64,000 nt of DNA, from contig JAFUGK010000002.1 in assembly GCA_017469445.1 (NCBI GenBank), forward strand, positions 1 through 64,000, read 5' to 3'. Origin of the DNA: Clostridia bacterium. GTDB lineage: Bacteria; Bacillota; Clostridia; TANB77; CAG-508. Below are positions 1 through 28,119 of the stretch, in pieces (position 1 is the stretch's first letter; each line of letters starts with the position of its first letter). The notes under the pieces were generated by a model, which saw only the letters and a list, made by a program, of their open reading frames with translations, did no database searches and was not told the origin of the DNA. The translations under genes and the position numbers were made by a program.

Positions 1-132
1 GATGATGTTGACGACGATGATGTTGTCGACGATGACGATGATGACGGCCCAGGAGGACCAGTAGAAAGTGATGATGATGATGACGATGATGACGACGATG
101 GCCCAGGAGGTCCAGGATATCCAGGAGGACCA
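1..132 (+). repeat. Asp-codon microsatellite (GAT/GAC) with GPGGP spacers
   Basis: Two runs of GAT/GAC codons, at about 1-45 and 70-102, each followed by a Gly-Pro-Gly-Gly-Pro spacer, code for an Asp-rich hinge inside B1. B2 has only a short DSDDDDEW at the same place before its B domain, so the tract has expanded or contracted between the paralogs. The hinge may bind cations or act as a spacer; that is inference. The repeat continues to the window edge, so its full length is unknown. Confidence 0.8.
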
Positions 133-3100
133 GAAGGAATAAGACTAACAATGAACTTCAGTGGAAGTATATGGAATGACCAAAGTGAAAATGTAAGCAA
201 TGGAATAAAAGAAACAGGAGAAGGAGGAATAAAAGGAGTAGAAGTATTCCTATATGATACACAGACATTAAAACAAGTAGCAAGAAGTGTAACAAATGCA
301 AAAGGAAAATATAAATTTAAGAAGATACCAGTAGGACTATACTATATAGCATATACATATGATGGACAAACATATATAACAGTAAAGAAATTTGTACAAG
401 GAGGAGTAGAGGACTATAAAACAAATGCAAATAGTAATGCATATGCAAATGTATCAGTAATGGGAGAAGTAGAAAGCACAAGAGATGCATTTAATAATAA
501 GTTTAATGAAATAACAAAGAATATAGAAAACCCAAGAATAGGAAGAGCAATATCAAAAGATAAAAGGACAGTAACAGAGCTAAGGTATAACGAAGATAGA
601 AATGGAAGTTATGTAATAACAAGAGATAGTAATACACAAATAGCATTAGGTGCATTCCAAATGAGATCAAGCAGTGAAGTAGACAAAATATTCTTCCCAA
701 ATACAAAACCATGGAAAGTAAATGGAATAGAATACTTAATAGTAGATGACATATATAGAATAAATATGGGATTAGCACAAAGGGAAAGAACAGATGAAAA
801 CTTAAGGTTAGATGTATATCAAACAACATTTAGTATAAAGGGACAAAGACAAAGCTATATACATAGCTTAAAAGACATAAGAAATATAAATAGTAATAAA
901 GTAGTAGCAGAATATGTGCAAAAAGTAAATCCGGATGACTATAGATGGAGATTAAGTGATTACGATAAATATAAAAATACACAACCAGAAGCATATAAAA
1001 CAATACATGAAATATATGGCTCAGCAGAAGAATGCGAATTAGAAACATATATAGAATATATGATAGTATTAAGAAATGCAGGATTAAATGATATAGCACA
1101 TATAACAGAACTTGCAGATTACTATGATACATCATTGGAGTATAGGGATAGCTATAGAGATTTTAAAAAATCATCATGGATAGTAATAAGAAAAGATGAT
1201 GATACAGAAGATTCATATAGTGGAGCAAATGAACAGAAACAAATAAAATGGAGTAAGACATCAAAATATGGAGATTTAAATAAATATGCAGACAACTTCA
1301 ATAAAATATATGCAGATTTAGATGAATATGGATTAGTAAGAGGAGAATATGCAGAAATACATTTAATATTTAGAGTACTAAAAGATGAACAAGGAAATGT
1401 ACGACTAGATAGTGGAGCAGGAAAACAAAATGTAGCAGAAATAAATGGATATAGGACAGAATATGGAAGTACAGGAAAAGTAGCAGGATTAATAGATATA
1501 GACTCAAAACCAGGAGATGTAAATCCATTAGAAGCAGTAGAAGAATATGAAGATGATGAAGATAGAGCACCAAGCTATAAACTAGAACTAGGATATACAA
1601 ATGCACCAAATGGAGGAAATGGAGGAGACGGAACAGGAACCCCAGGAGGAGCAGGAACAGGAAGTGGAACAGGAGCAGGAGGAATAGGAACATATAATGG
1701 AACAGGATATGGAAATACAATAGAAGGAAATGTATGGGAAGACATAAAAGATAAGACAAAAACGACATCAGATGGAAGATATATAAGCAATGGAATAAAA
1801 GAAGAAAATGAGCCAAAAATCGACGATGTAAAAGTAGAGTTAATAGAAATAATAAGAGGAAAAGGAAAAGTAGCAGAAGTACTATTAGAAGAAAAAACAG
1901 TAACAACAGGAAACCAAGCACTATTAACTAAAAAAGCAATAAGCAAAGGAGCATATAGGTTTAGCCATTTAACAGGAGGAGAATATAGAGTAAGATTCAC
2001 ATATGGATTAGAAGAACAATTAGAGAAAGATATAAAATATAATGGACAAGATTATCAAGCAAGAACAAGTAGCGAAATAATGGATAGAGACAAACTAGGA
2101 AATAGCTATAGCAATGCAGAAATAGTAATAGCAATAGATAATTCAAACAGTATGAATGGAACAAAAATGAACTTAGCAAAAACATCAGCAACAAAACTAA
2201 TAGAACAATTAAGAGCAAAATTACCAGGAATAAAAATAGCAGTAGTAAACTTCAATAATAGAGCATATACAATAGGAAATGTAGGAACAAGCATACAAAA
2301 CATAAACAATGGAATAGGAAATTTAAGAGCCGGAGGAGAAACAGCAATAGGATTAGGAATAGAAGAAGGAAAAGGAAAATTTACTGATGTAGATAAGAAA
2401 GTAATGGTAATAATAACAGATGGACAAGAGACAGTACAAACAGAAGAAGATGTAATAAGACAAATAGAAACATTAAGAACAAATAAAGTAGAACTAATAA
2501 GTATACTAACAGGAAAAAGTGAAAACATATTCGGAATTGAAGGAAGAGCAAGATATGGAGAAGTATATGAACTAGTAGACACAAATAGTATATATAATAA
2601 AGTAGTAGGAGAGATATACGAAAAGATAATAAAAGATACAGAAGTAGAAAAAGATAGAAGCTTAGGAAGAGACATAGAAGGAGATTTAACTAAAGAAGCA
2701 AGAGGAGAAATAAGTGAAGGAACAAGAGCATGGCAAATGAACTACTTTAGTGATATGAATTATACAAAAGGAGCAATGCTAGACATAGAAACAATAAATG
2801 GAATTGCAGACAAGAAAGAAAGAAAACAAAATATAAAAGAGATAGCAAATAAAACATGGATGAAAGCAGAAACCAAACATGTAATGTTTAGTGCAGGAAA
2901 CATAGGAGAAGACAAGATACATGAAGTAAACCAAGCATTAATAGAAAGACCAAGACAAAAATTAGAATTAACCCAAGAAATAACATCAATAAAAGTAACA
3001 TTAAGTGATGGAAAAGTAATAATAGACACAGAAAAAGGACTAAACAAAAATGTAATGGGACTAGGAGTAGCAGGAGCACCAGTATCAATATATATGGATG

Positions 3101-3843
3101 AAGAAGTAATGATGGGAGCAGAAGTAGAAGTAAGATATAAGCTATTCATAGAAAATGCAGGAGAAGTAGATATGTTAAGTAATTACTTTGCAGGAGGAAG
3201 TAATGAAACAATTACAACAAGTGCAAAAGTAATATACATGTATCTAGATCAAAACTTAGTATATAGGGCAGAATCACAAGGAACAGAAGATAAAGAAGGA
3301 ACCAAAGCAGTACAATGGGAAACATTAACAATAAAAGAAAAAGAAGATAAAGAAAAGCTGAAAGAAGAATTATCAGACAAGACAGTAGAAGATGTAGAAA
3401 AGCAAGGAACATTAACATTAAGAACAGAAGGATTAAAAGAAGTAAATCTATATCCAAAGGGAAGTGCTGAATTAAAATTAGGAAATGCAAGCTATAGGTC
3501 AGACATAGGAGCAGAGGTAGTATTAAGTAGATTAATATCACCAGAAGATGATGAAAGCACAAGTTTAACATATGATAGTTCAATGGAAATAACAGTAAGA
3601 GGAAATAGAGTAGGAAGAAGAGTAATAGGATCAGTACCAGGAAACCACAGAGAAATAGCAATAAGAGATGATACAGGAGCAAGAATAAGTGTAGAAGCAG
3701 ATGAAGCAGCAAGTAGGAAAGTATTGATAACAAAACCACTGGGAGAAAATAGAAATATAGAGTATATACTTTATATAGTGGCAGGTTTAAGTATAGTTGC
3801 AGTTACTGTAGGAACTTTAAAGTTAAGAAACAAAAGAAAATAA
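1..3843 (+). CDS. B1: giant vWA / SdrD-B-domain surface protein, 3' part (5' end outside window)
   Basis: The frame is open from base 1, so the gene starts left of the window; the internal ATG at 151 has no Shine-Dalgarno site and is not the start. Numbering from the first codon seen (1280 residues): Asp-rich linker with GPGGP spacers 1-43; SdrD/Cna-type B domain about 51-150; a DUF11-like stretch in the middle; Gly/Thr-rich linker 537-574; second B domain about 569-690; von Willebrand A domain with MIDAS residues D713 (DNSNS), T781 (GGETAIG) and D807 (ITDGQE); membrane helix about 1255-1275 and a basic tail. The helix follows ITKPLGENR, not LPXTG. It aligns along its whole length with the C-terminal half of B2 (9529-16872). 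A secreted, membrane-anchored adhesin is inferred. Codon use is odd: Gly is almost always GGA, Ile ATA, Ala GCA and Thr ACA, until about 3750 where mixed codons return. Confidence 0.85.
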   Translation, partial: DDVDDDDVVDDDDDDGPGGPVESDDDDDDDDDDGPGGPGYPGGPEGIRLTMNFSGSIWNDQSENVSNGIKETGEGGIKGVEVFLYDTQTLKQVARSVTNAKGKYKFKKIPVGLYYIAYTYDGQTYITVKKFVQGGVEDYKTNANSNAYANVSVMGEVESTRDAFNNKFNEITKNIENPRIGRAISKDKRTVTELRYNEDRNGSYVITRDSNTQIALGAFQMRSSSEVDKIFFPNTKPWKVNGIEYLIVDDIYRINMGLAQRERTDENLRLDVYQTTFSIKGQRQSYIHSLKDIRNINSNKVVAEYVQKVNPDDYRWRLSDYDKYKNTQPEAYKTIHEIYGSAEECELETYIEYMIVLRNAGLNDIAHITELADYYDTSLEYRDSYRDFKKSSWIVIRKDDDTEDSYSGANEQKQIKWSKTSKYGDLNKYADNFNKIYADLDEYGLVRGEYAEIHLIFRVLKDEQGNVRLDSGAGKQNVAEINGYRTEYGSTGKVAGLIDIDSKPGDVNPLEAVEEYEDDEDRAPSYKLELGYTNAPNGGNGGDGTGTPGGAGTGSGTGAGGIGTYNGTGYGNTIEGNVWEDIKDKTKTTSDGRYISNGIKEENEPKIDDVKVELIEIIRGKGKVAEVLLEEKTVTTGNQALLTKKAISKGAYRFSHLTGGEYRVRFTYGLEEQLEKDIKYNGQDYQARTSSEIMDRDKLGNSYSNAEIVIAIDNSNSMNGTKMNLAKTSATKLIEQLRAKLPGIKIAVVNFNNRAYTIGNVGTSIQNINNGIGNLRAGGETAIGLGIEEGKGKFTDVDKKVMVIITDGQETVQTEEDVIRQIETLRTNKVELISILTGKSENIFGIEGRARYGEVYELVDTNSIYNKVVGEIYEKIIKDTEVEKDRSLGRDIEGDLTKEARGEISEGTRAWQMNYFSDMNYTKGAMLDIETINGIADKKERKQNIKEIANKTWMKAETKHVMFSAGNIGEDKIHEVNQALIERPRQKLELTQEITSIKVTLSDGKVIIDTEKGLNKNVMGLGVAGAPVSIYMDEEVMMGAEVEVRYKLFIENAGEVDMLSNYFAGGSNETITTSAKVIYMYLDQNLVYRAESQGTEDKEGTKAVQWETLTIKEKEDKEKLKEELSDKTVEDVEKQGTLTLRTEGLKEVNLYPKGSAELKLGNASYRSDIGAEVVLSRLISPEDDESTSLTYDSSMEITVRGNRVGRRVIGSVPGNHREIAIRDDTGARISVEADEAASRKVLITKPLGENRNIEYILYIVAGLSIVAVTVGTLKLRNKRK

Positions 3844-4738: not shown

Positions 4739-7700
4739 ATGAAGGATATAAAGTATGATGTTATAACTGAAAAATCTGGAAAAAGCAAAGGCTTATTTGG
4801 CAAAAAGATATTGGCAATTCAAAGTAAGATAACAGCTTTAACTTTAGCAATTAGCTTAAGTATGCCACATTGCTTTGGTTTGATAGGAAGTTATATTGCA
4901 ATAGCAGAAAGTAATGAAACAGAGAATTTGCAAATAAATCAAAGCATAGAAAAATATATAACCTATTCAAACAGATGGGATATTGGAGAAGATGATGAAG
5001 AAAAAAGTGGAGTAATTTTACAGCAAAAAATTAAAATCGAAAATACTGTAGTAGATTACGAAAAAGAAGAAATTAAAGTTACAATACCACAGTATGCAAG
5101 TATTTTACCAGATAGATTTGAAATTATAATGCCAAATGAGATTTTAACCAATAATGAAAATGCTAAAACTTATTATCATGTTAATACTGAAAATACTGAA
5201 ATTACAATAACTGAGAAAAATAAGACAAATAAAGAATACTATATCACATACTTTTATCCACAGGAAGCATACGAAAAATATTTAGATTCCACACATGTAA
5301 AAGAATATACAGATGGAAAAATTTCTAAAATTGAAAAAGATGAAACAACAGGACAAACCTGGGTATTTATAGATTATGGATGGGATGAGGAAGAACATGA
5401 AGGTGAAGAACAACCAGAAAACAAGAAATTATTAGATATTATACCTGTAGAACTAAAAACAAAAGTTAGCATAATAAAAGAAGGCGAAGAAACTAAAGAA
5501 AAAGAGAATATAACAAATTTTAATTTAGATGTTAATATTGGAAATCTAATTGAACTGAAACAGTATTCAAACAAAAGCGAAATGTATAGAAACAAGATAG
5601 AAGCGAACAAAGAAATAAAATTAGAAATAGAAAACAAAATTAATATAACAAATTATGAAGAAACAAAAAAATTAAGTATTAAAACTCTAGAAGGAAGACT
5701 TGTAAAAGAAGATCAAAGCAAACAGTTATTAAGTGAAAAATATGAATATATAAAAATTCCAAAGACAAATTTTGATGATATTCTAGGAGAAAACGGAAGT
5801 ATAAAAGTACTTAATGAAGAAAATGAAGAACTTGGAGTAATAGATTTTCAAACTACAGCTGATAGTAACGGGCTTTTAATAATTCCATTTGATGAAACAT
5901 ATATACAGTTAGAAATGTCAAACATAAAAAGTAATGGATTTTTAAATATTACAACAGGAAAAAGTATATTAGCAGATCAGGAATATTCAAGCAAAGACTT
6001 AAAAGAATTTAAGCAATATGAAGCAATATCAGAATTTAAAATAGAATATAATGATGATGAGATATTTAGTGAAAATGTTGGAGTAACAATAGATTTAAAA
6101 GATACAATAACAAGGGCAACATTAGAAATGAGTACTACCAATTTATCTACAACAGAAAAAAATGAGGAGATAGAACTAAAGGTTGAATTGAATAATAATC
6201 TTGAAGATTCTGATTTGTGGGAAAATGGATATATAGTTATAGAATTGCCAGAAGAAGTAAGTAATATAGAGCTTAATGGAAGTGGTATATTATATGGCGG
6301 AGGAATTGAATTAGCAGATACTTCTGTTATAGAGCTTAATGGACATGCAGCATTAAGAGTAAATCTATTAGGAAGACAAAAAGATATTATATCAAGCTCT
6401 ATTTTAGGTGGTACTTCTATAGTAATATATTGTAATATAGAATTAGAAGAACTAACAGGAATTGCACAAAACAAAGAAGTTAAATTATATTATTTTAATG
6501 AGAATAAAACTAGTTATGAGGATTCTGTTAGATTAGAAGATGAAACCGAGCTAGGTGTTAATCAAATTTTTGTTAATTATATTGCACCAGTAGAGTTTAG
6601 AACTATACAAAAAATCAGTGAATTTGATGAAGTGGGAACTGAGATAAAATCTACGAATGCATTACAGAACGTAGGAAAAATAAACATATTATCACCTGCC
6701 ATAAAAGCAAAATATAATATTGATTTAATAAATAATACAGGGAATGTAGCAAGGCCAATAGCAGTAATAGGAAATATACCATTTGAGGGTAATAAAGATG
6801 TAGCTTCTGGTGAAGTGCTAGGTACAACAATTTCTGCAACATTAAGTGGGAATGTTGCATATGTTGGAGAAGCAGAAAAAGAGGTAAAAATTTATTATAG
6901 CGACAAGGAAATAGTAGATACAGATTTATCTAAAGTATCTAATAATTGGAAGGAAACTGTACAAAGCTTTGATGATATAAAATCATATATGATTGTTGTA
7001 AATGAAATGGGGGTTGGAGAAAAACTAGAATTTGAATATTATTTAAATATTCCAGAAAATCTACAGCATGGAGAAACCTTGTATTCAAGTGTAGCAACTT
7101 ATTATATTAATAATACAGAAATTGGACAAGTAGCACAAGTTTCAAGGGCAAATATGGTAGGACTTACAACAGGCGTAGGTGCAAAAATGAAACTAGATTT
7201 ATCTGCTGGAATTAATACAAATGAGAAGTTTTCAGAAGAGCAAAAAGTAACTTATAAAATAAAAGTTGAAAATATAGGTGGAATTGCTGCTGAAAATGTA
7301 GTAATACAAAATCAAATACCAGCAGGAACAAATTATATACAAGAACAGGTTATAGAAAATGAAATAGAGAAATATAATCAATATACATTTTATTCAGCAT
7401 CTAATGAATTAATGTGGGAACTAGGGGATGTAGAGCCAGGAAAGATTATAGAATTAGAATATTCTGTTTTAGTCGATAAAATACCTTCAGTAGTAGAATA
7501 TTATGGGGCAATAGATGGATTTACAAAAGACGAAGAGAATAATAAGTACTATATTGAAAAGATAGATGAAGTAACAGGAGAAGAAACAAGAGAAGAAATA
7601 ACAGCATTATCAGAAATTATAGTAACAAATCAAGCTAGATTAAAGGCAGATAATATAGAAAAAGAAGTGCAATCTAATGAATTACAAAACATTGTAAAAA

Positions 7701-9526
7701 GAACAAGCTTGACTATTGAAGAAGAATCATCAATACAGAAGGCAGTATATATAAATGAAAAACAAGAGTATTCTTATAGAATAGTAATAATTAATAAAGA
7801 AGAATTAGAAGTAAATAATATACAAGTAAGCAAACAAATACCGGAAGGTGTTACATATAAAGAGGCAAAAATAACATATGGAAATGGCGAGATAGAATTT
7901 GATTCTAATACTAACATGTTTTCAGCAAGAATAGAAAAAATTGCTGCAGATGATAGAGTTGATATTGAAATAACAGTTGTTGCAAACAAATTAGAAGAAA
8001 ATACTTATAAGAAAAAGATTGAAACAAATTCGCAATTGCAAATAGAAGGAAAAGAAACTCAAAATTCAAATTCTGTAGAAAATACAATAGCAAAACCAGA
8101 TTTAGTAGCAAATATAGAATGTGATGTAAAACAAAGATATATATATGAGGGAGATATATTAAACTATACAATAAATATAACAAATAGAAATGATGTTACA
8201 GCAGGAAATTTAAATATATTAGATATAATACCTGATTACACTGAATTTGCAACAGCTTCATTTATTCAACAAGGTGAAGAATATCAAATAATATCTGATG
8301 GAACAAAAAATATAATAGCAAATACCAATTTAACAAATGAAAGCATAACTATAAAAATAATGGTTCAAGTATCAAATATAAAAGAGAGTACAAAAGAGAT
8401 AGAAATTGAAAATAGAGCTTCATTAAAAGGAGTAAACGTAGAAGAAATAGACATTGGAACGATTAAGCATATAGTAATTAACAGAGATAGTAAGGGAAAG
8501 CCAGCAAACGGAGAAAAAACGGATAGGTTTAGTATTAAAGGAAACATATGGAATGATATAAACAAAGATGGGGAATATCAGGATAGTGAAAACACAATAT
8601 CAGGAATAACAGTAATGCTAGTTAATGAAAATGGAGAAATAGCATACGATTATGATACAAATGAAGAAAAAGTAACACAAACAAATTTAAACGGTGAGTA
8701 TGAATTTAACAATGTAGAGAAAGGCAGATACATGATAATATTTATGTATGACAATAATAAATATACTGTTACAGAGTATCAAAAAGCCGGAATTGTAAAT
8801 GATAGAAACTCAGATGCAATATTAAAAGAAGTATTGTTCAATGGAAATGCTTTTGAAGCAGGAGTATCAGATTTTATTCAAATAGAAGATAGAGATTTAT
8901 ATAGTATAGATATAGGATTAATAGAAAAGCCTAAATTTAATTTAAAATTAGAAGCGGGAATAAGTTCTATAACACTCCAAACTAAGAGTGGAACAAAAAA
9001 TGCAGACTATAATATGTCTAAACTTGCAAAAGTAGAAATTAATAATAAGGACATAAACGGAGCAACAGTTATAATAGAATATAATGTTAGAATTACAAAT
9101 GATAGTGAGATTTCAGGTTATGTTACACAATTAATGACTAATAAGCCAACAGGAGTAAAATTTAATTCTTCTGCTAATAACGAGTGGTATGAAGGAAATG
9201 ATAATAACATATATCTAACAGTATTTGCTAATAAAATAATTAATCCAGGAGAAAGTATAAATGCTAAATTAATATTAGTAAAACAAATAACAAGCAAAAG
9301 TTTAGGAAAAGTAGAAAATGAATTTAATATAATAAAAACATTTAATGAAAGTGGAAAACAAGAGGAAAATCTGCAAGATAACAATAGCAAAGTAGAAATA
9401 TTAATAGTTGCTGCAACTGGAAATAGAGGAATGTATATAATGCTGGCTACAATAGTACTTTGCATAATTAGTTTAGGAATATTGTTAATAAAAAGAAAGG
9501 TTACAAATGAAAAGAGGTGGAGCTAG
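4739..9526 (+). CDS. A1: giant DUF11-repeat / SdrD-B surface protein
   Basis: This 1595-residue protein has a basic N-terminus and a signal-peptide-like helix at about 30-56 (ALTLAISLSMPHCFGLIG). A long series of beta-rich, Asn/Glu/Lys-rich segments of DUF11 type follows (IKVENIGGIAAENVVIQNQI is typical). One SdrD B domain lies at about 1263-1360 with the calcium-loop pattern DINKDGEYQDSE. A last DUF11-like domain contains NEWYEGNDNN and NPGES. The protein ends with VAATGNRG, a helix at about 1565-1584 and a basic tail. It shares signatures with A2 and A3: GNIPFEGNKDVASGEVLGTT and TTG[VR]G. It lacks most of the N-terminal region that A2 and A3 share. ATG 4739 has AGGAAAGGA upstream. B2 follows after 2 bases, so the two are very probably co-translated. 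Role inferred: membrane-anchored adhesin or scaffold outside the cell. Confidence 0.85.
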   Translation: MKDIKYDVITEKSGKSKGLFGKKILAIQSKITALTLAISLSMPHCFGLIGSYIAIAESNETENLQINQSIEKYITYSNRWDIGEDDEEKSGVILQQKIKIENTVVDYEKEEIKVTIPQYASILPDRFEIIMPNEILTNNENAKTYYHVNTENTEITITEKNKTNKEYYITYFYPQEAYEKYLDSTHVKEYTDGKISKIEKDETTGQTWVFIDYGWDEEEHEGEEQPENKKLLDIIPVELKTKVSIIKEGEETKEKENITNFNLDVNIGNLIELKQYSNKSEMYRNKIEANKEIKLEIENKINITNYEETKKLSIKTLEGRLVKEDQSKQLLSEKYEYIKIPKTNFDDILGENGSIKVLNEENEELGVIDFQTTADSNGLLIIPFDETYIQLEMSNIKSNGFLNITTGKSILADQEYSSKDLKEFKQYEAISEFKIEYNDDEIFSENVGVTIDLKDTITRATLEMSTTNLSTTEKNEEIELKVELNNNLEDSDLWENGYIVIELPEEVSNIELNGSGILYGGGIELADTSVIELNGHAALRVNLLGRQKDIISSSILGGTSIVIYCNIELEELTGIAQNKEVKLYYFNENKTSYEDSVRLEDETELGVNQIFVNYIAPVEFRTIQKISEFDEVGTEIKSTNALQNVGKINILSPAIKAKYNIDLINNTGNVARPIAVIGNIPFEGNKDVASGEVLGTTISATLSGNVAYVGEAEKEVKIYYSDKEIVDTDLSKVSNNWKETVQSFDDIKSYMIVVNEMGVGEKLEFEYYLNIPENLQHGETLYSSVATYYINNTEIGQVAQVSRANMVGLTTGVGAKMKLDLSAGINTNEKFSEEQKVTYKIKVENIGGIAAENVVIQNQIPAGTNYIQEQVIENEIEKYNQYTFYSASNELMWELGDVEPGKIIELEYSVLVDKIPSVVEYYGAIDGFTKDEENNKYYIEKIDEVTGEETREEITALSEIIVTNQARLKADNIEKEVQSNELQNIVKRTSLTIEEESSIQKAVYINEKQEYSYRIVIINKEELEVNNIQVSKQIPEGVTYKEAKITYGNGEIEFDSNTNMFSARIEKIAADDRVDIEITVVANKLEENTYKKKIETNSQLQIEGKETQNSNSVENTIAKPDLVANIECDVKQRYIYEGDILNYTINITNRNDVTAGNLNILDIIPDYTEFATASFIQQGEEYQIISDGTKNIIANTNLTNESITIKIMVQVSNIKESTKEIEIENRASLKGVNVEEIDIGTIKHIVINRDSKGKPANGEKTDRFSIKGNIWNDINKDGEYQDSENTISGITVMLVNENGEIAYDYDTNEEKVTQTNLNGEYEFNNVEKGRYMIIFMYDNNKYTVTEYQKAGIVNDRNSDAILKEVLFNGNAFEAGVSDFIQIEDRDLYSIDIGLIEKPKFNLKLEAGISSITLQTKSGTKNADYNMSKLAKVEINNKDINGATVIIEYNVRITNDSEISGYVTQLMTNKPTGVKFNSSANNEWYEGNDNNIYLTVFANKIINPGESINAKLILVKQITSKSLGKVENEFNIIKTFNESGKQEENLQDNNSKVEILIVAATGNRGMYIMLATIVLCIISLGILLIKRKVTNEKRWS

Positions 9527-9528
9527 AA

Positions 9529-12500
9529 GTGACGAAAAAGCTATGCATAGTTTTTACAATATTAATGTTATTATTAAGTAGTATAGTGTATGCAGCAAAT
9601 GGTGATAATCCAGATTATGATATTGACTTAAAAGATGGATATATTTCTGGGAAAACAGAAATTCCACTAAATTGGACTGCAGTAGATAGTAGCATTAAAC
9701 TTACAGATGTTGTAAAAGTAGGAGATTATATAAATTACAATATACCATATGAAACTATTCAAAATAACTATCAGTATATTGATCCAATACTAAAGAGTAA
9801 AATAGCTGTAAGAAGTAATAATACATTATGGAGAGTTATTTATAGTGATGAAAAAACTGTAAAAATAGTTAGTGTGCAACCAGTTGGAACAGTTTCTATA
9901 GGAACAGATAAAAATTATGGATTTTCTTCTAGCTATTATGGCCAATATTCATTTGATAATGGTGGATTTGGACTAGAATATACAATGGATGCTTTGGCCA
10001 AATGCTATATAGATTATAAATTAGCAACAGATGCAAGAACTGTGGATTTTAAAGATATTCAACATACAGATGCAAATTTAGTATTAAAACAAGCTTTAGG
10101 AAACGAGATGGATGAAGTAGATTTAACAATAGATCCAAGTGCATATAGCGAAATATATGATACAGAAAGACATTTTAGTCTAAAAAGACTTTTTTATAGA
10201 AATTATGAATTTGATGTAGCAAAATTTAATGATACTACTAACTTGTATTATGGGGGAAAGTTTTTAATTAGTAACTACTTTAACGGAAATGGAGATATAA
10301 ATGCTGTTTATTATGCAAATGGAGCAAATATAAAACTAAGCAGGGTAAACCCTAAAGGACAAACAGTTCAAGCAGGAATAAAGGTTGTTGTAACTTTAAA
10401 AGAAGATTTATTTGAAATAGATGGAAATGGAACACAAACTAGTCCATGGGAAATAAGTAATATTCCCGGAGGAGCTACATATAAAATATATCAAAAAATA
10501 GGAGAAAATGGTACATATGCCCAAAAAGTAACTACCAAAGAAACTAATTTTACATTTAAATCTAAAGATGGAATTAGTGACCAAACAGTACCATATACTC
10601 CAAATATGGAAATGTATACTATTCCTGGTGATAAGAAAAACGTATATATAGAATTAACAGGAATAGACGAAGGAACAACATATTATCATAAAATAACATC
10701 TCAAGTAGGTAAAAAAGTATATACATCAAACGAAATAGAAACTACTGTAATACAAGGAATTAAAGGCTTTTATTATAAAATAGATACTACAAAAACTATG
10801 ACAAATGCTAATACTTTAAAAAGTAGTGGAAAATTTATAGCACCAGGTAACGATATAAAAGTATCTAGGGCAAATATTAATGCGAAAACAACTAAATATA
10901 TTCATATAGTGGCAGTAGATAACGGAGGTAAGTTAAGTGCAATTTTAAATAAGTCATTAACATATTCATATGGAGATTTAAGCTTGATTTCTACTTATCA
11001 AGATGCTAAAGATATAGATTCAAATGGAATTGCAAGAACAGCTGGATGGAACTATATAGACCTTAAATGGGAGCCACAAACATTTGAAGGAACAGTGGTA
11101 TACAAAAATACACCTAATATAGTATTTGTTTTAGATACATCTGGAAGTATGGAAGGAGATAGAATTAATAGCTTAAGAAAAGGAGCTAATCAACTAATTG
11201 ATCATTTATTTGACGAAGACTCTGATACCCAAATAGGTATAGTAGAATTTGCTAGTGGCGCTTATAATCGTACAGGAAATCTATGGGGCATTGATAAGAA
11301 GGAAGCCCTAAAAAATATAATTTGGAGCTTAAGTCCAGGAGGAATGACTGCTGCTGGAAGTGGAATAAGAACGGCAGATAGTATGTTAGATGGTAAAGAA
11401 AATGGAATTATAATAACTATTACAGATGGATATTCAAATAGAGGAACAAGTCCACCAGTAGCAATAAGGGAAGCAAAAGCTAAAGGATATCAAACTATCA
11501 GTGTAATGGTTAATATGTATAATGATTACCAATTTAGAGAAAGTAATAAGTTATTATATACAAGTGATGAAAATTTTTATAAAACAGTTGCAGAAGATTT
11601 AAGTAAAACTATAAAGGAAATAATAGAGTCTAAATATTCTTTATATAAAACTAGCCATGAGACAGCAAATGCTAAAAATTCGATAGTAGTTAAAGATACA
11701 ACTTCAAAAGAGAATACTGATGGAAGAGCAAATGATAAAGCAGCACCAACTAAGCCAATTGTTACAATATACGAGGAAATAGATCAAAAAACTAATAAGC
11801 GTACAGGGTATTTAAAATATAATATTTGGGCAGAAGATTTAGGAACAGTATATGAGTTTTATGTTACAGCTAATAACTCTAAGAGTACCCAAACATATAA
11901 TTCTAATGCAGTAACACAAGAGGTAAAAACAGGAATACAAGGTTATGCTTGGAGTATAACAGATAAAAAATCTGACGACCCAGGAAGAACGGTAAAACCA
12001 TTGCCAACAGTAAATGGAAAAGAAGGTAATACCATTGATAAGTCTTTTATAGGTAAATGGTTGCACATAAGGGCAATAGATTATGCTGGAAATGCAGGAG
12101 AAAAAATAGATATTAAACTTGAAACCAATAAATATATACCATGGGAAGAACTTAATAGAAATAGTATATTATTCTGTATTCAACATGGGCAAACAATACC
12201 TGCTCAAAGTGCAGATGGACATTTAAATGCGGTAGTTAGAGCAGGTACTGGGAAATATGCAATAAATGAGATTGTACTTGATCCAAAAGAGGGGGATAGA
12301 TTAGGTTCAAAATTTGTAGAGGGGACAACACGAAATATATATGGAACAAATCCTATATATAGCTATTCTTTTGGAAAATATGAAATATCTTCTGAAACTC
12401 CTAAAAGAGCAGCAGGAAAAGAAGGAAATGCTACAGACATAGAAGCATATATATTGAATTATTATGCTGAAAATAATAGCTTAAGCTCGGCAGTACAAAC

Positions 12501-15500
12501 AGCAATGTATCAGTCAGAAATAAGTAGGGGAAATATAAGCTGGGATTTTAAAACAACATTAGAAAGCTCAAGAATTATAGCAGAAGCTACTGCATATGCT
12601 AATACAAGGAAAAAAGGTTTTAACGCTGATAACATAAAACTTAACACAAAAATGTATATGGATGAAAAGTATCAAGATATAGTGTTAGGGCCATTAATGC
12701 TAAATTATGAACCAGAGGGAGTAAGCAATAAAGGCAAAGATACATATTTCTCTAGAATAATTGGGATGAAAGTTTATGACCAAAATAATAAAGTTATATC
12801 AGAATTAAATAGAGATGGAAATAATGTTGGGGATATACAAGTTGAATTTATTTATTCTGGAGCAGATAATATAAAGAGAAAGCAAACAGCATTTACAAAG
12901 GAAAAATATAAATTTCCTGTAGGATTTGAAGAGTTTTATATTAAATTTAAATATAAAGCATCTCTTGAAAATGTAACAAAGTTTAGCAAAATAGAGTTTA
13001 TACATGGAACAAGCGTATATGATGCACAATACAATGTACTTACAGGTACATATAACAAGGTTAGATGGATACCAAACTCTAAAAGTGTATATTGTGATGA
13101 TGTGAAGAATGGTTATACTGTTTGTAAACATGGAAAAAAGCAAAGACATTTGATTGGATCTTATTTCTATTTAACAGCACACATAGAACAAAAAGGATTA
13201 ACATCACAAAAATTATTAGAAGTTCAATGGACAAAAGTAAAAGAAGAAGTTCATGTGCAAAAAGTCATACCTGATTCTGGAATACTAGGAGGACCGGACA
13301 GTGATGATGACGATGAGTGGAAATTATTTATAAATATTTCTGGCAATATATGGGATGACGGAATGGAAGATAAGAACAATGGAATTAAAGAAGATATAGA
13401 AAATGGAATTGAAAAAGTCAAAGTAATAGCATATGGAATTGATTCAAATAAAAAAAGAAATGGAATTGAATATTCAACATATTCAAATGAAGTAGGAAAT
13501 TATTATATAAATAATATGAGAAGAGGATTATACGAGCTTGTATTTGTATATAATGGCCAAGATTATAAATCTACAAAACTTCTTGTAAATGGAAGTGCGG
13601 CAGATTATCAAAGTAAGCCATTACAAGCTAAATATAAAAATAATTCTGTTGCACAGGAGACAGCTAACGACAGGAGAATATATAATAAATCCTTTGAAGA
13701 GATTACCGGAGTGGATACAGCTTTAGGAGGAAGTAAAACAATACCTTTAGAGTACAAGGAAAACTATATTAATGGAGAGAAAGTTGCTAGAATACAAACT
13801 TATACAAGAGATGGATATACAAAAGGCGATTTTGAGATTAAATCAAGCAGTATTTCAAGCAATATTACATATCCACGTGGAAAAGTTATAAGATTAGATA
13901 ATGTAAGATATTTAGAATTAGTAGACAATTATAATGTAAATTTTGGATTAGCTGAAAGATATAAAACAGATGCAAATTTAAAAACTGATGTATATGAAAC
14001 AACATTTAGTATAAAAGGTAAAAAACAATCATACATATATTCTGAAAAAGACATAAGAAATATAAATTCAAATAAAACAGTATCTAACTATATACAAGAA
14101 ATAAATAAAGCAGATTATAATTGGAAATTAGAAGATATTCTAAATAAGGCACCTGATGAAGATACAAAACAAAGATTGAAAACTATTTTAGGAACTGCTG
14201 AGGATGCTGAGCTAAAAGCAGAAATAGATTATATTATTGTAATTAGAAATTCAGGGGAAAAGGACAGTGTACAAATAGCAGAACTTGCGGATTATTTTAC
14301 AAAAGATTTAGAATATGTTCGTTCATGGGCTGGTGTAAAATACGATGATTTAAGAGAAGATAGAAGTAGAGACATAAGTGAAGAAATTCCGATTGAGTGG
14401 AATTTTGAATCAAAATATAATACAGAAAATAAGTACTCAAGCGAATATAACAGAATGTATACAACAGGATTAGACAGAAAAGAATTAAGGTTCAAAAAAG
14501 GCGAATTTTTAGAAATACATATAGTATTTAGACCATCTAAAAAAGATGGAAAAATAGAATTGGATGATAGTAGTTCGCCAAAACAATTAATGGCAGAAAT
14601 AAATGGATATAAAACATATTATGTTTCAGATGGTAGCGTAGCAGGGCTAATAGATGTAGATTCTAAACCAGGGAATGCAAATCCATTGTTAACAAGAAAC
14701 GATGAAGAAGATGATGAAAATAAAGCTCCAGATTTAATATTTAAATTAGCGGAAGGAGATAATGGAGGTACTGGTAATCCAGGAGGACCAAATGGAACTA
14801 ATGGTGGCAATGAAGAAAATGGACCACAAGGGCCAGGCAACTATGGAAATGTACTAGAAGGAAATGTATGGGAAGATTTAAGAACAGGAAATAATATTAA
14901 TAAGCTTGTAAACAATAAGATAATAAGTGATGGATATAGGCAAGATGGAGAGCCAGAGGTTCAAAATGTTAATGTAGAATTAATAGAGTACTATGAATAT
15001 CCAAATGATGCAAGTAAAGATGTATATATTCCATTAACACAACAAAGGACAAGAACAGTATATTCATTAAGCAATGGTGAAACATTAGGAGGAGGATATA
15101 GTTTTACGAACTTATCTTCAGGAAACTATATGGTTAAATTTGTATATGGAGATGCATATCAATTACAAAATAATTTAAAATATAATGGACAGGATTATCA
15201 AGGATTGTCAACAAAAGACATCTATGGAAAAGATGGAGTAAAAGTATCATATGAAGATGTAGAAATACTTCTTACTGTAGATATATCAGGAAGTATGAAC
15301 AAAACAGTAGATTTAATAAGAAAAGTAGGAAGTACTATAACGGATACTCTTTCTAATCAATTACCTAATGTTAAAATAGGATTAACAACATTTAATAATA
15401 TTGCAGGACTTAAAGTAAAACAAGAATCTAATAATGATAGTAGATTAAAAGATGCTATAAAAAAATTAGGTGCTAACGGCAATACTGCAATTGGATATGG

Positions 15501-16872
15501 AATAGATACATCTAATAATAGCTATAGTCAAAATGCAAAACAAAAAATAATGATAATATTAACTGATGCAGAAGAAACAGTACAAAATGTTGAGCAAGTT
15601 ATTAAGAGCTTAGAAAAAGCAGTAGATGAAAACGATGTTTCTGTAGCAACAATTCTTACAAAAGAAAATAAAGAAATATTTGGAACAGCAGCAGAGCCTA
15701 GAAGAGGTGCAGTATATGAAATTAGTAGTGTACAATCAGATGCAGCAATCGAGAATATTATCAAAAAAATAGTGAGCGAAAATGTTGTAGAAAATAGAAG
15801 AAGTAATGCAAAAGATGTAGAGGGAAATCTAAATGATCCTAAACCGGGAACGAGAGCTTATAATATAAAACCATATCAAATTATGGATGCTAAAAACGCT
15901 CCAGAAATAGCTGTAGAAAATATAAAAACGGAAGAACAGATAAAGATATTAGCTGATAAAACATATATGACAGCCGAAAGTATAATTGTAAATTACAAAC
16001 CAAATAATGTAAAAGGAAATACTGTGCATGAGCTAAATTTAGCTTTAATGGAAAGACCAAAAACACAACTTAAAATTTTAGAAGATATTATAGCAATAAA
16101 GGTAATATTAAGTGATGGAACTGTGCTAATAGATACATCAAAAGGCTTAAATAAGAACATAAATGGATTGGAAAGAGAAGGTGTTCCAATAACTATATAT
16201 ATGGATGATGAGATAATGCATGGAGCAAATTTAATTGTTGATTATAGAATTACATTAAGAAACGAGGGCGAGATAGATACACTTTCAAGTTATATAACAG
16301 GTGAAAGTGACGAAACAGTACCAACTAGCGCAAATTTAATAGTAAATTATGCAAGTAAAAATATGCTATATTATGGAGGAAGCTTTGCGTGGGACATGGT
16401 AGAAATTACTGGATTAAAAGATAAGTTATCTACATATGTATATAATGATTTAAGAAGGAGAGAGAATAATAAGACATATCAAACTAAAGAATTGAACATT
16501 AAACTATATCCTGAAGGCAGCAAAGAAGTAATCGAAGGAAGAGGAAAATCTGAAGATATATTCTATGTAACATTGTCAAAATTAATAACACCAGAAGATG
16601 CTGAAATGGATTTAACATTTAATAGTTCTTTGGAAATATTAGAAAGGGAAAATAAAGTTGGACGTAGAGCTATTGGACAAGTACCAGGAGATTATATACC
16701 AGATTCAGAAGTTAATATTATGAACCCAGATCAGACGAAAGCAAGAAAGATTATAATTACTAAACCATGGGGACAAGATAGAAGGACTATATTTATAGAA
16801 ATAGGAATAGCAATATCAACAGTAATAGCTCTAGGAACATGGTACTTAAAAAGAAAAATGAAGAACCACTAA
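9529..16872 (+). CDS. B2: giant double-vWA surface protein with possible thioester domain
   Basis: GTG 9529 is chosen because AGAGGTGG lies 8-9 bases upstream; the GTG at 9517 would sit inside that site. The product has 2447 residues. Signal peptide 1-23; an N-terminal region containing LWRVIYSDEKTVKIVS; vWA-1 with MIDAS D536 (DTSGS), T607 and D633; a segment with C883 (FCIQHG) and Q990 (AVQTAMY) that resembles a Cys-Gln thioester adhesin domain; a four-Cys-free stretch, then two Cys in YCDDVKNGYTVCKHG; short Asp-rich hinge about 1255; B domain about 1266-1360; DUF11-like region; Gly/Asn-rich linker about 1743-1772; second B domain; vWA-2 with D1918 (DISGS), T1986 and D2013; membrane helix about 2422-2445 after ITKPWGQDR. 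The second half is paralogous to B1. vWA domains with MIDAS bind ligands through a metal ion; a role in attachment is inferred. Codon use is ordinary for the window, unlike B1. Confidence 0.85.
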   Translation: MTKKLCIVFTILMLLLSSIVYAANGDNPDYDIDLKDGYISGKTEIPLNWTAVDSSIKLTDVVKVGDYINYNIPYETIQNNYQYIDPILKSKIAVRSNNTLWRVIYSDEKTVKIVSVQPVGTVSIGTDKNYGFSSSYYGQYSFDNGGFGLEYTMDALAKCYIDYKLATDARTVDFKDIQHTDANLVLKQALGNEMDEVDLTIDPSAYSEIYDTERHFSLKRLFYRNYEFDVAKFNDTTNLYYGGKFLISNYFNGNGDINAVYYANGANIKLSRVNPKGQTVQAGIKVVVTLKEDLFEIDGNGTQTSPWEISNIPGGATYKIYQKIGENGTYAQKVTTKETNFTFKSKDGISDQTVPYTPNMEMYTIPGDKKNVYIELTGIDEGTTYYHKITSQVGKKVYTSNEIETTVIQGIKGFYYKIDTTKTMTNANTLKSSGKFIAPGNDIKVSRANINAKTTKYIHIVAVDNGGKLSAILNKSLTYSYGDLSLISTYQDAKDIDSNGIARTAGWNYIDLKWEPQTFEGTVVYKNTPNIVFVLDTSGSMEGDRINSLRKGANQLIDHLFDEDSDTQIGIVEFASGAYNRTGNLWGIDKKEALKNIIWSLSPGGMTAAGSGIRTADSMLDGKENGIIITITDGYSNRGTSPPVAIREAKAKGYQTISVMVNMYNDYQFRESNKLLYTSDENFYKTVAEDLSKTIKEIIESKYSLYKTSHETANAKNSIVVKDTTSKENTDGRANDKAAPTKPIVTIYEEIDQKTNKRTGYLKYNIWAEDLGTVYEFYVTANNSKSTQTYNSNAVTQEVKTGIQGYAWSITDKKSDDPGRTVKPLPTVNGKEGNTIDKSFIGKWLHIRAIDYAGNAGEKIDIKLETNKYIPWEELNRNSILFCIQHGQTIPAQSADGHLNAVVRAGTGKYAINEIVLDPKEGDRLGSKFVEGTTRNIYGTNPIYSYSFGKYEISSETPKRAAGKEGNATDIEAYILNYYAENNSLSSAVQTAMYQSEISRGNISWDFKTTLESSRIIAEATAYANTRKKGFNADNIKLNTKMYMDEKYQDIVLGPLMLNYEPEGVSNKGKDTYFSRIIGMKVYDQNNKVISELNRDGNNVGDIQVEFIYSGADNIKRKQTAFTKEKYKFPVGFEEFYIKFKYKASLENVTKFSKIEFIHGTSVYDAQYNVLTGTYNKVRWIPNSKSVYCDDVKNGYTVCKHGKKQRHLIGSYFYLTAHIEQKGLTSQKLLEVQWTKVKEEVHVQKVIPDSGILGGPDSDDDDEWKLFINISGNIWDDGMEDKNNGIKEDIENGIEKVKVIAYGIDSNKKRNGIEYSTYSNEVGNYYINNMRRGLYELVFVYNGQDYKSTKLLVNGSAADYQSKPLQAKYKNNSVAQETANDRRIYNKSFEEITGVDTALGGSKTIPLEYKENYINGEKVARIQTYTRDGYTKGDFEIKSSSISSNITYPRGKVIRLDNVRYLELVDNYNVNFGLAERYKTDANLKTDVYETTFSIKGKKQSYIYSEKDIRNINSNKTVSNYIQEINKADYNWKLEDILNKAPDEDTKQRLKTILGTAEDAELKAEIDYIIVIRNSGEKDSVQIAELADYFTKDLEYVRSWAGVKYDDLREDRSRDISEEIPIEWNFESKYNTENKYSSEYNRMYTTGLDRKELRFKKGEFLEIHIVFRPSKKDGKIELDDSSSPKQLMAEINGYKTYYVSDGSVAGLIDVDSKPGNANPLLTRNDEEDDENKAPDLIFKLAEGDNGGTGNPGGPNGTNGGNEENGPQGPGNYGNVLEGNVWEDLRTGNNINKLVNNKIISDGYRQDGEPEVQNVNVELIEYYEYPNDASKDVYIPLTQQRTRTVYSLSNGETLGGGYSFTNLSSGNYMVKFVYGDAYQLQNNLKYNGQDYQGLSTKDIYGKDGVKVSYEDVEILLTVDISGSMNKTVDLIRKVGSTITDTLSNQLPNVKIGLTTFNNIAGLKVKQESNNDSRLKDAIKKLGANGNTAIGYGIDTSNNSYSQNAKQKIMIILTDAEETVQNVEQVIKSLEKAVDENDVSVATILTKENKEIFGTAAEPRRGAVYEISSVQSDAAIENIIKKIVSENVVENRRSNAKDVEGNLNDPKPGTRAYNIKPYQIMDAKNAPEIAVENIKTEEQIKILADKTYMTAESIIVNYKPNNVKGNTVHELNLALMERPKTQLKILEDIIAIKVILSDGTVLIDTSKGLNKNINGLEREGVPITIYMDDEIMHGANLIVDYRITLRNEGEIDTLSSYITGESDETVPTSANLIVNYASKNMLYYGGSFAWDMVEITGLKDKLSTYVYNDLRRRENNKTYQTKELNIKLYPEGSKEVIEGRGKSEDIFYVTLSKLITPEDAEMDLTFNSSLEILERENKVGRRAIGQVPGDYIPDSEVNIMNPDQTKARKIIITKPWGQDRRTIFIEIGIAISTVIALGTWYLKRKMKNH

Positions 16873-26073: not shown

Positions 26074-28119
26074 ATGGGAGAAAAATTAAAAAGAGCCATA
26101 AAAAAAGCAAGAATACATTTTATAGTAGTAATAATACTATGGTTAGTTTTAGCCATAGTATTTGTTGCGCCTATGTCAATTGCTTTAGCAGATGCAAAAG
26201 TTAATGGTGTGCTTCATTTTAAAACTTTTTTTGAAAAATTGTTTGAAAATATGCAAAACCTAGGAACTTCTATATTTTCTGCTTTTGGAGCAAATTACAT
26301 AGGCAATTATTTTGGCGTTTTATTCAAATTTACAATAGTTTATATAATTGCTGCAATAATTGGTATTGCTAAGATGTGGCCAAAATCAGAGTATGATACT
26401 ATAGAACATGGTTCAAGTGATTGGAGCGAACACGGTGAACAATATAAGGTGCTAGATCCTAAAAAAGGAATATTACTTGCAGAAAAGAATTACTTGCCAG
26501 TAGATAAAAGAGGAAACACAAACGTACTAGTAATAGGTGGATCTGGTGCTGGTAAATCTGCATCTTTCGTTATACCTAATGCATACCAACAACTAGGGTC
26601 ATATGTATTTACTGATCCTAAAGGCGAATTATATGATAAAACAGCAGGTTATCTAAGAGCAAATGGATATGAAATAAAGATATTTAATTTGATAAATCCT
26701 AAAAATAGTGATGGGTATAACCCTTTATTCCACATAAAAAGTGAACTAGATGTAGACGTAATTGCAAACACAATTGTAAAAGGACAAGTGGGGGCTGAAA
26801 ATAAAAGTGACCCATACTGGGATGATATGTCAGAAGCTTTATTAAAAGCATTAATATATTATCTAAAGGCAACAAGACCAGAAGAAGAACAAAATTTAGC
26901 AAGTTGTGCAGAACTTGTAAGAGCTGCAAATAATAATGGTGGAGATAACTTGCTTACAAATCTAATGAGCCAATTACCATATGATCATCCAGCAAGAAGA
27001 TATTATAAAAACATTGAAATTGCACCAGATAAAACATATAGTTCTATACTAAGTTCTTTGCAATCTAAACTAGGTAAATTTGATTCTAAAGATATAGCAG
27101 AACTTACATCAACAAATACAATAGAATTTGAAGATATAGGAAGAAAGAAAACAGCTGTATATGTTATATCATCAGATACACATGCAGCATATGATTTCTT
27201 ATTAACAATATTCTTCTCTCAGATGATTCAGCAATTATATGATTTTGCGGATTTAAATGGTGGAGCGTTAAGTATTCCAACATATTTTATACTTGATGAG
27301 TTTGCAAACATCGGTAAAATACCAGATTTTGATAAAAAGATATCAACAAGTAGAAGTAGAAAAATATCATTTAGTGTTATTTTACAGAATTTAGACCAAT
27401 TAGAAGCTGTATATAAGGAAGCCCATGAAACAATAATGGGTAACTGCGATACTCACCTTTTCCTTGGAAGTAACTCACAAAAAACTGTAGAGTATTTTTC
27501 TAAAGCATTAGGAGAAAAAACTATTACACGTGATAATGTTTCAAGGAATACAGACAGAGAAAGTCGTACAACAGGACATGGATATTCAGACCAAATAATG
27601 GCAAGAGCACTTTTAACACCAGATGAATTAAGAAGATTAGATAATGATTTATGTATTATTTATGAAAAAGGTATAAAACCAATAAAAGCAAATAAATATT
27701 ACTACTTTAAGTATCCAACAGCAAAGTATGCAGCAATGTATCCAGCTAGCCACAATGATATAGAACCAATAGATAGAGGAGTGTGGAGAACATATAATCC
27801 ATACAATCCATACGAAGAAGAAAATGAAATAAAAGAAAATACAAAAATAGAATCATTAGATGATTTGTTCGAAGAGCCTAGTGATGATAAAGCAGAAAAT
27901 TTAGAAGAACTAAAAGTGGAAGAACCAAAGCAAGAAAAAGTAGTTCAAAAAGTAGCAACAAATGTAGAGCCTAAAATAGAAGAAAATGATGAACTAGATG
28001 ATTTAATGTCACCAACATTGCCAGATGCCGAAGAAGGAGAAAATTTAGCTGTAGATATTCAAAAAGAATTAGAAGATAAATTTGATGAATTATTTGGTGC
28101 ATTTGACGATGAAGAATAA
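26074..28119 (+). CDS. VirD4/TraG-like coupling ATPase (clostridial CD1115-type)
   Basis: 681 residues. Two membrane helices (about 13-33 and 80-100) are followed by the FtsK/HerA-like ATPase: Walker A GGSGAGKS at 155-162, SYVFTDPKGELYDKTAGYLR, Walker B ending ILDEFANIGKIPDF, and the arginine/sensor stretch STSRSRKISFSVILQNLDQL. A long acidic, low-complexity tail (from about 585) follows the ATPase. VirD4 proteins bring relaxase-DNA complexes or protein substrates to a type IV secretion channel. No relaxase, VirB4, VirB6 or integrase gene is in the window, so this may be a domesticated ATPase or a partner encoded elsewhere. SD is a weak AAAAGGGTG before ATG 26074. Confidence 0.9.
   Translation: MGEKLKRAIKKARIHFIVVIILWLVLAIVFVAPMSIALADAKVNGVLHFKTFFEKLFENMQNLGTSIFSAFGANYIGNYFGVLFKFTIVYIIAAIIGIAKMWPKSEYDTIEHGSSDWSEHGEQYKVLDPKKGILLAEKNYLPVDKRGNTNVLVIGGSGAGKSASFVIPNAYQQLGSYVFTDPKGELYDKTAGYLRANGYEIKIFNLINPKNSDGYNPLFHIKSELDVDVIANTIVKGQVGAENKSDPYWDDMSEALLKALIYYLKATRPEEEQNLASCAELVRAANNNGGDNLLTNLMSQLPYDHPARRYYKNIEIAPDKTYSSILSSLQSKLGKFDSKDIAELTSTNTIEFEDIGRKKTAVYVISSDTHAAYDFLLTIFFSQMIQQLYDFADLNGGALSIPTYFILDEFANIGKIPDFDKKISTSRSRKISFSVILQNLDQLEAVYKEAHETIMGNCDTHLFLGSNSQKTVEYFSKALGEKTITRDNVSRNTDRESRTTGHGYSDQIMARALLTPDELRRLDNDLCIIYEKGIKPIKANKYYYFKYPTAKYAAMYPASHNDIEPIDRGVWRTYNPYNPYEEENEIKENTKIESLDDLFEEPSDDKAENLEELKVEEPKQEKVVQKVATNVEPKIEENDELDDLMSPTLPDAEEGENLAVDIQKELEDKFDELFGAFDDEE

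Follow-up and report, generated by a model that had tools for sequence, protein, structure and literature searches.

The gene at positions 9517 to 16872 of a 64,000-nucleotide stretch of contig JAFUGK010000002.1 (assembly GCA_017469445.1, from a Clostridia bacterium; this whole stretch is referred to here as the window) encodes B2, a large surface protein in which an original prediction, made from the sequence alone, had placed a possible internal thioester domain (TED) behind a von Willebrand factor A (vWA) domain with a metal ion-dependent adhesion site (MIDAS). The analysis reported here suggests that this TED is best regarded as a new, lineage-restricted variant of the class II thioester adhesins, internal and located behind a vWA-MIDAS domain; residues from about 871 to 1260 in all likelihood represent a divergent class II-type TED with C887 and Q1231 as the predicted thioester pair. 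The features of B2 are as follows.

9517 to 16872, forward strand: B2, a 2451-amino-acid secreted surface protein (open reading frame (ORF) and Pfam; same layout in orthologues L120 and L122)
11116 to 11589, forward strand: N-terminal vWA domain, residues 534-691 (Pfam VWA and MIDAS positions)
12127 to 13297, forward strand: predicted class II-type TED, residues about 871-1260 (family alignments A1 and A5, hhalign comparison with Pfam-TED relatives, AlphaFold2 (AF2) model)
12175 to 12177, forward strand: C887, predicted thioester Cys in the [YFL]C-Phi-zeta motif, FCIQ (Cys in 75 of 82 relatives; motif as in PMC4450167)
12496 to 12498, forward strand: Q994, Gln of the helix motif VQTAMY, the equivalent of TQxx-Phi-W (Gln in 93 of 99; in the model, part of the middle helix at 991-1002)
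12688 to 13158, forward strand: class II-type beta-sandwich insert (GPL...EEFYIK...), residues about 1058-1214 (column conservation and local hhalign score)
13093 to 13149, forward strand: C1193, C1203, H1205 and H1211, a possible metal-binding loop in the insert (C-x(n)-C-x-H...H pattern; putative function)
13207 to 13209, forward strand: Q1231, predicted bond-forming Gln in the PhiQ-zeta-Phi-Phi-like TSQKLLEV (Gln in 65 of 78; terminal-hairpin turn in the model)
15262 to 15615, forward strand: C-terminal vWA domain, core about residues 1916-2033 (Pfam and positions of the MIDAS motif D1922-S-S)
16762 to 16872, forward strand: C-terminal anchor, ITKPWGQDR followed by a hydrophobic stretch and KRK (C-terminus comparison), a possible non-canonical sorting signal

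B2 comprises, in order, a signal peptide, the first vWA domain, an immunoglobulin (Ig)-like domain, the TED, SdrD_B-like domains, the second vWA domain and a C-terminal membrane anchor; Pfam recognizes the two vWA domains (E 1.7e-25 for the whole protein, with the best stretch at 534-691; the second domain at about 1913-2030) and, weakly, the SdrD_B-like domains. The MIDAS of the first vWA domain is complete, with DTSGS at 540 (D540-S542-S544), the Thr of GGMT from 608 and the Asp of ITDGY from 635, in agreement with the original prediction, and the order vWA, TED, SdrD_B, vWA is identical in the two orthologues, which come from other metagenome-assembled genomes. Cys residues are indeed few (five in 2451 residues, at 10, 163, 887, 1193 and 1203), and the motifs FCIQHG (12172-12189) and AVQTAMY (12490-12510) do place their Cys and Gln 107 residues apart; however, the residue numbers originally assigned to them, C883 and Q990, were too low by four and should read C887 and Q994, and the domain extends to about 13297 rather than ending at 12560. 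While the proposed arrangement of an adhesin tip with a stalk is plausible, the TED of B2 is internal, beginning at residue 871 of 2451, unlike the N-terminal, distal TED of TIE proteins. Since the shorter relatives L018 and L022 carry an N-terminal TED directly behind the signal peptide, B2 looks, by sequence, like this shorter form with an added N-terminal vWA/Ig cassette. In the paralogues L013 (contig C20) and L015/L123 (sister species), the vWA-Ig cassette is replaced by another domain, which reads VLNVYP...DVIMFGTWD...GRGVLYGHD and resembles a fold of the class I amidotransferase/ThuA type; L123 additionally carries a Gly-rich domain.

In TEDs, the bond is formed between the Cys of a [YFL]C-Phi-zeta motif and the Gln of a weak PhiQ-zeta-Phi-Phi motif (Walden et al., PMC4450167; Miller et al., PMC6194298), while the Gln and Trp of TQxx-Phi-W, on helix 2, mostly form hydrogen bonds with the main chain of the Cys and play no essential part in bond formation (PMC4450167, PMC6194298). 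Class II TEDs carry a beta-sandwich inserted after helix 3, and it is strand Q of a hairpin that supplies their bonding Gln, as in the Cys71-Gln266 pair of BaTIE (PMC6194298). In B2 the first motif is present as F-C887-I-Q and the helix motif as VQTAMY (Val for Thr and Tyr for Trp); the predicted bonding Gln is present, at the level of sequence, as S-Q1231-KLL, in which Ser replaces the first hydrophobic residue, 344 residues after C887. We consider it very likely that Q1231, and not Q994, is the partner of C887. YQDIV, directly before GPL, was also evaluated as a PhiQ-zeta-Phi-Phi motif and ruled out, as its Gln varies among relatives.

Searches with B2 alone or with its alignments against Pfam, NCBIfam and PDB sequences gave no TED match. 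Proteins that score above the curated cut-off for Pfam TED (PF08341) are, on the other hand, encoded by the window's own genome and by 41 other genomes of relatives searched (42 of 55), and hhalign comparison of a profile of such proteins with the B2 family gave an alignment with E 1.2e-6 that placed Cys on Cys and Gln on Gln (score 35.4, as compared to a maximum of 17.2 for 21 shuffled or reversed profiles). Within the same Clostridial order, the larger Pfam-TED proteins, which are of class II type (alignment A4; e.g., L016), show the layout [FY]C ... VQQLAIW ... GPF ... QPVV with 260-320 residues between Cys and late Gln; in these, Y-C, QxAxW, GP and the late QP are invariant, and their profile matches a fibronectin-binding protein structure (5dcq) via the helix motif (E 0.001). 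Local hhalign of the B2 family against these class II-type TEDs gave a score of 61.3, with a maximum of 19.3 for 40 shuffled or reversed controls; global alignment of the same profiles (E 6e-9, probability 95%) co-aligned C, VQxA, GPF, FYI and the late Gln, with Q1231 on the Gln of QPVV, and a repeat with the separately built alignments A5 and A4 gave a probability of 92.8%. As judged from these profiles, the B2 family is homologous to the class II-type TEDs that Pfam recognizes in the same bacteria, and the B2 domain itself is very probably a TED homologue.

Conservation within the family points to the same residues. A search of 55 related genomes with the B2 region identified an orthologue with 61% identity in the same genus; the window's own genome yielded three further copies, and the remaining matches were remote relatives. 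C887, Q994 and A996 are invariant in an alignment of 8 sequences (A1; 22-61% identity to B2) and Q1231 is invariant across 36 members (A5). For a larger set, about 100 members were fetched, and 101 relatives were aligned with the guidance of a profile (median pairwise identity about 21%). In this alignment, Cys occupies the C887 column in 75 of 82 relatives (background Cys 1.1%), consistent with the original assignment of the FCIQHG Cys as the thioester Cys, while Gln occupies the Q994 column in 93 of 99 (background Gln 3.4%) and the Q1231 column in 65 of 78; Gly is found at G891 in 72 of 82, and the aromatic column of the helix motif is Trp in 76 and Tyr in 15 of 99. Within the insert, G1058 (98/98), P1059 (97/98), P1134 (98/98) and F1140 (98/98) are nearly or fully invariant. 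A C-x(n)-C-x-H-G-x(n)-H loop of the sandwich insert, found in many but not all family members, is possibly a zinc site, to judge from its pattern; its two Cys and two His columns (CCHH) are conserved far less than C887. The family looks restricted to one lineage, since a sample of 398 genomes across the phylum gave a match to the 8-sequence profile in the window's own genome only; within the same Clostridial order, 124 of 385 genomes sampled contained a match, and a search of viral contigs, phages and plasmids gave none.

Two further family members lie in or near the window. A Cys-less copy of the domain at 61545-62162, within a 2983-amino-acid open frame that runs from 59487 to past the window end, retains the helix motif (YVQRAF) and the GPF sandwich, and Cys-less copies like it occur in other genomes; a reading of clear late-Gln loss in this copy was dropped, as the register is ambiguous. 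L012, encoded by an ORF from 10328 on contig C5, just after the window, shows the NEAQIAIW and GPL signatures, with a doubtful Cys equivalent (NMCDEEH).

An AF2 model of the TED region (7-sequence alignment, pLDDT (predicted local distance difference test) 68.4) shows three helices, a beta-sandwich and a long terminal hairpin, in this order; both profile homology and this order of elements support placement of the sandwich between helix 3 and the hairpin. Q1231 falls in the turn of the hairpin (strands 1211-1229 and 1233-1250), and Q994 lies early in the middle helix of the three-helix unit, as in known TEDs, both in this model and in a second, longer run, which was worse (pLDDT 60.6). A Foldseek search with the model ranked 6fwv (BaTIE, a class II TED) first of 350,542 PDB chains; that the best match falls in the exact class predicted from sequence is suggestive, as far as such a model can be relied on.

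A number of observations weigh against assignment of this region as a class II-type TED with a C887-Q1231 bond. The Foldseek match to 6fwv is weak (E 0.011, probability 0.38, low TM), and model confidence is modest, with pLDDT <50 for model residues 1-79, around C887. Neither B2 nor any of 36 family members matches Pfam TED (PF08341) at E<=1, and PDB sequence searches find no match to the family. Only about 17 residues separate the Ig-like domain from C887, in a stretch modelled with very low confidence, as compared to 36-49 residues before the Cys in three crystallized class II constructs; class II TEDs place strands A and B, with the specificity loop, in this part of the domain. Finally, in a few relatives that retain the Cys, no late Gln is aligned with it, and paralogues of the 59487 type, which lack the Cys, hold a Gln in HTQTITLHK, although in uncertain register.

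Three alternative explanations were considered, of which the one that fares best, while still improbable, is that the TED fold has been inherited without its chemistry, as a scaffold for non-covalent binding. Cys-less paralogues, including the one at 61545-62162, as well as the failure of AF2 to place the Cys, are consistent with such a scaffold; however, B2 itself keeps the Cys, the helix Gln and the late Gln, and elsewhere in the family Cys and late Gln tend to vanish together. With a tolerance of one residue, 59 members have both, 1 has only the Cys, 2 have only the Gln and 4 have neither (Fisher p 1e-4, shared ancestry ignored); strict counting gives 54, 6, 2 and 4, respectively (p 0.0037, shared ancestry likewise ignored). 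L042, one of the two Gln-only rows, in fact possesses the Cys motif but was cut short in its local alignment, and among Cys-less members the register of the late Gln is uncertain. From sequence, formation of the thioester bond in B2 appears probable.

The pairing originally proposed, a C887-Q994 thioester in a compact domain that resembles class I and ends near 12560, is very unlikely, even though Q994 exceeds Q1231 in conservation (93/99 versus 65/78) and the 107-residue spacing is superficially plausible. In characterized TEDs the Gln of the QxA[I/L]W-type motif sits on the central helix and is unbonded, which makes Q994 an unlikely partner; in addition, Q994 is helical in both models and is retained in 6 of the 7 aligned Cys-less members, and class II-type homology runs on through the beta-sandwich to the late Gln, where Q1231 fits the bonding position. 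It is scarcely credible that C887 instead forms a disulfide or binds a metal together with C163 or C1193/C1203 and that the Gln motifs are structural. Although B2 has these residues and the C..C.H..H pattern, L018 and other short relatives, in which the TED directly follows the signal peptide, retain the Cys but lack an equivalent of C163, and conservation of the CCHH columns falls far below that of C887.

Among known systems, the class II TEDs BaTIE, SaTIE and EfmTIE86 (PMC6194298) share with B2 the [YFL]C motif, a QxxPhi-W-like helix motif, the sandwich insert after the third helix and a late Gln on the terminal hairpin. B2 differs in a longer Cys-Gln spacing (344, versus 195, 171 and 204 residues, respectively), a larger insert with a possible CCHH site, the internal position of its TED, the lack of LPXTG and the failure of Pfam TED to detect it. 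The Pfam-TED proteins of the order (A4) show five landmarks in the same order as B2, at a spacing of 260-320 rather than 344, but are another kind of protein, with an N-terminal TED, and their kinship to B2 is visible by profiles only. TIEpLS20, encoded by Bacillus subtilis plasmid pLS20 (PMC8092201), is an adhesin with a class II TED and, like B2, has no canonical sortase signal; a model together with conservation led to the proposal that its Gln256 pairs with Cys68 (PMC8092201), and the surrounding SSYQRLMSS resembles the late motif of some B2 relatives (YQKMLSA, FQRLLST). It differs from B2 in size (778 amino acids), an N-terminal TED, a CnaB stalk and a demonstrated role in conjugation, and hhalign of its single sequence against either profile gave no significant score. 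Genes for VirD4/TraG-type coupling proteins are found in the window at 26074-28119 and, in the relative L018 (genome G027), next to the TED gene on its downstream side; as the TED adhesin of pLS20 aids conjugation, a conjugation link is worth considering. Surface adhesins of the pilus-tip type are characteristically large anchored proteins that combine a MIDAS vWA domain with Ig-like stalk domains, and B2 shares this arrangement. To our knowledge, no vWA-MIDAS surface adhesin with a TED directly after the vWA domain has been described.

Beyond the homology, the architecture and the conservation of C887, Q994 and Q1231 observed here, we propose a mechanism in which B2 would be exposed on the cell surface, presumably anchored at its C-terminus. 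Q994 on the central helix would help to frame the Cys, and the hairpin that follows the beta-sandwich would bring Q1231 back to C887, allowing the two to form an internal thioester. On contact with a partner surface, possibly made first via the MIDAS vWA domain just upstream, a nucleophile of the partner, such as a lysine, may then attack the thioester and become covalently bound to Q1231. As Q1231 is the likely bonding Gln, mutation of Q994 alone would mislead. A more far-reaching and rather doubtful possibility is that B2 represents a third, lineage-restricted structural type of bacterial TED, with a class II-like core, an enlarged metal-site insert and no strand pair before the Cys; placed immediately after a MIDAS vWA domain, it would unite metal-dependent docking with covalent capture in a single head. 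This assignment would extend covalent thioester adhesins to a family invisible to Pfam and PDB sequence searches, and suggests that a TED can stand behind interchangeable N-terminal cassettes (vWA in B2, other domains in paralogues) and not solely at the tip.

With regard to anchoring, the original statement that B2 lacks a sortase signal holds for LPXTG, which is absent, but is too broad otherwise; the C-terminus carries ITKPWGQDR, a hydrophobic stretch and KRK, and, as relatives end in ITPPTG or FTPPTG and the genome encodes several sortases, this tail may be a non-canonical sorting signal. Four ORFs in the window (1-3843, 4739-9526, 9517-16872 and 54055-59490) have common tails, with ITKP[WL]G[EQ][ND]R, VAATGNR or VKTGEQ followed by a hydrophobic stretch and Lys/Arg, which by their sequence are probably non-canonical sortase signals. 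Both ORF 1-3843, at its start, and the TED-containing ORF of contig C20 (L013), at its end, meet a contig edge within an Asp-rich stretch; the two may be halves of one gene that was split in assembly.

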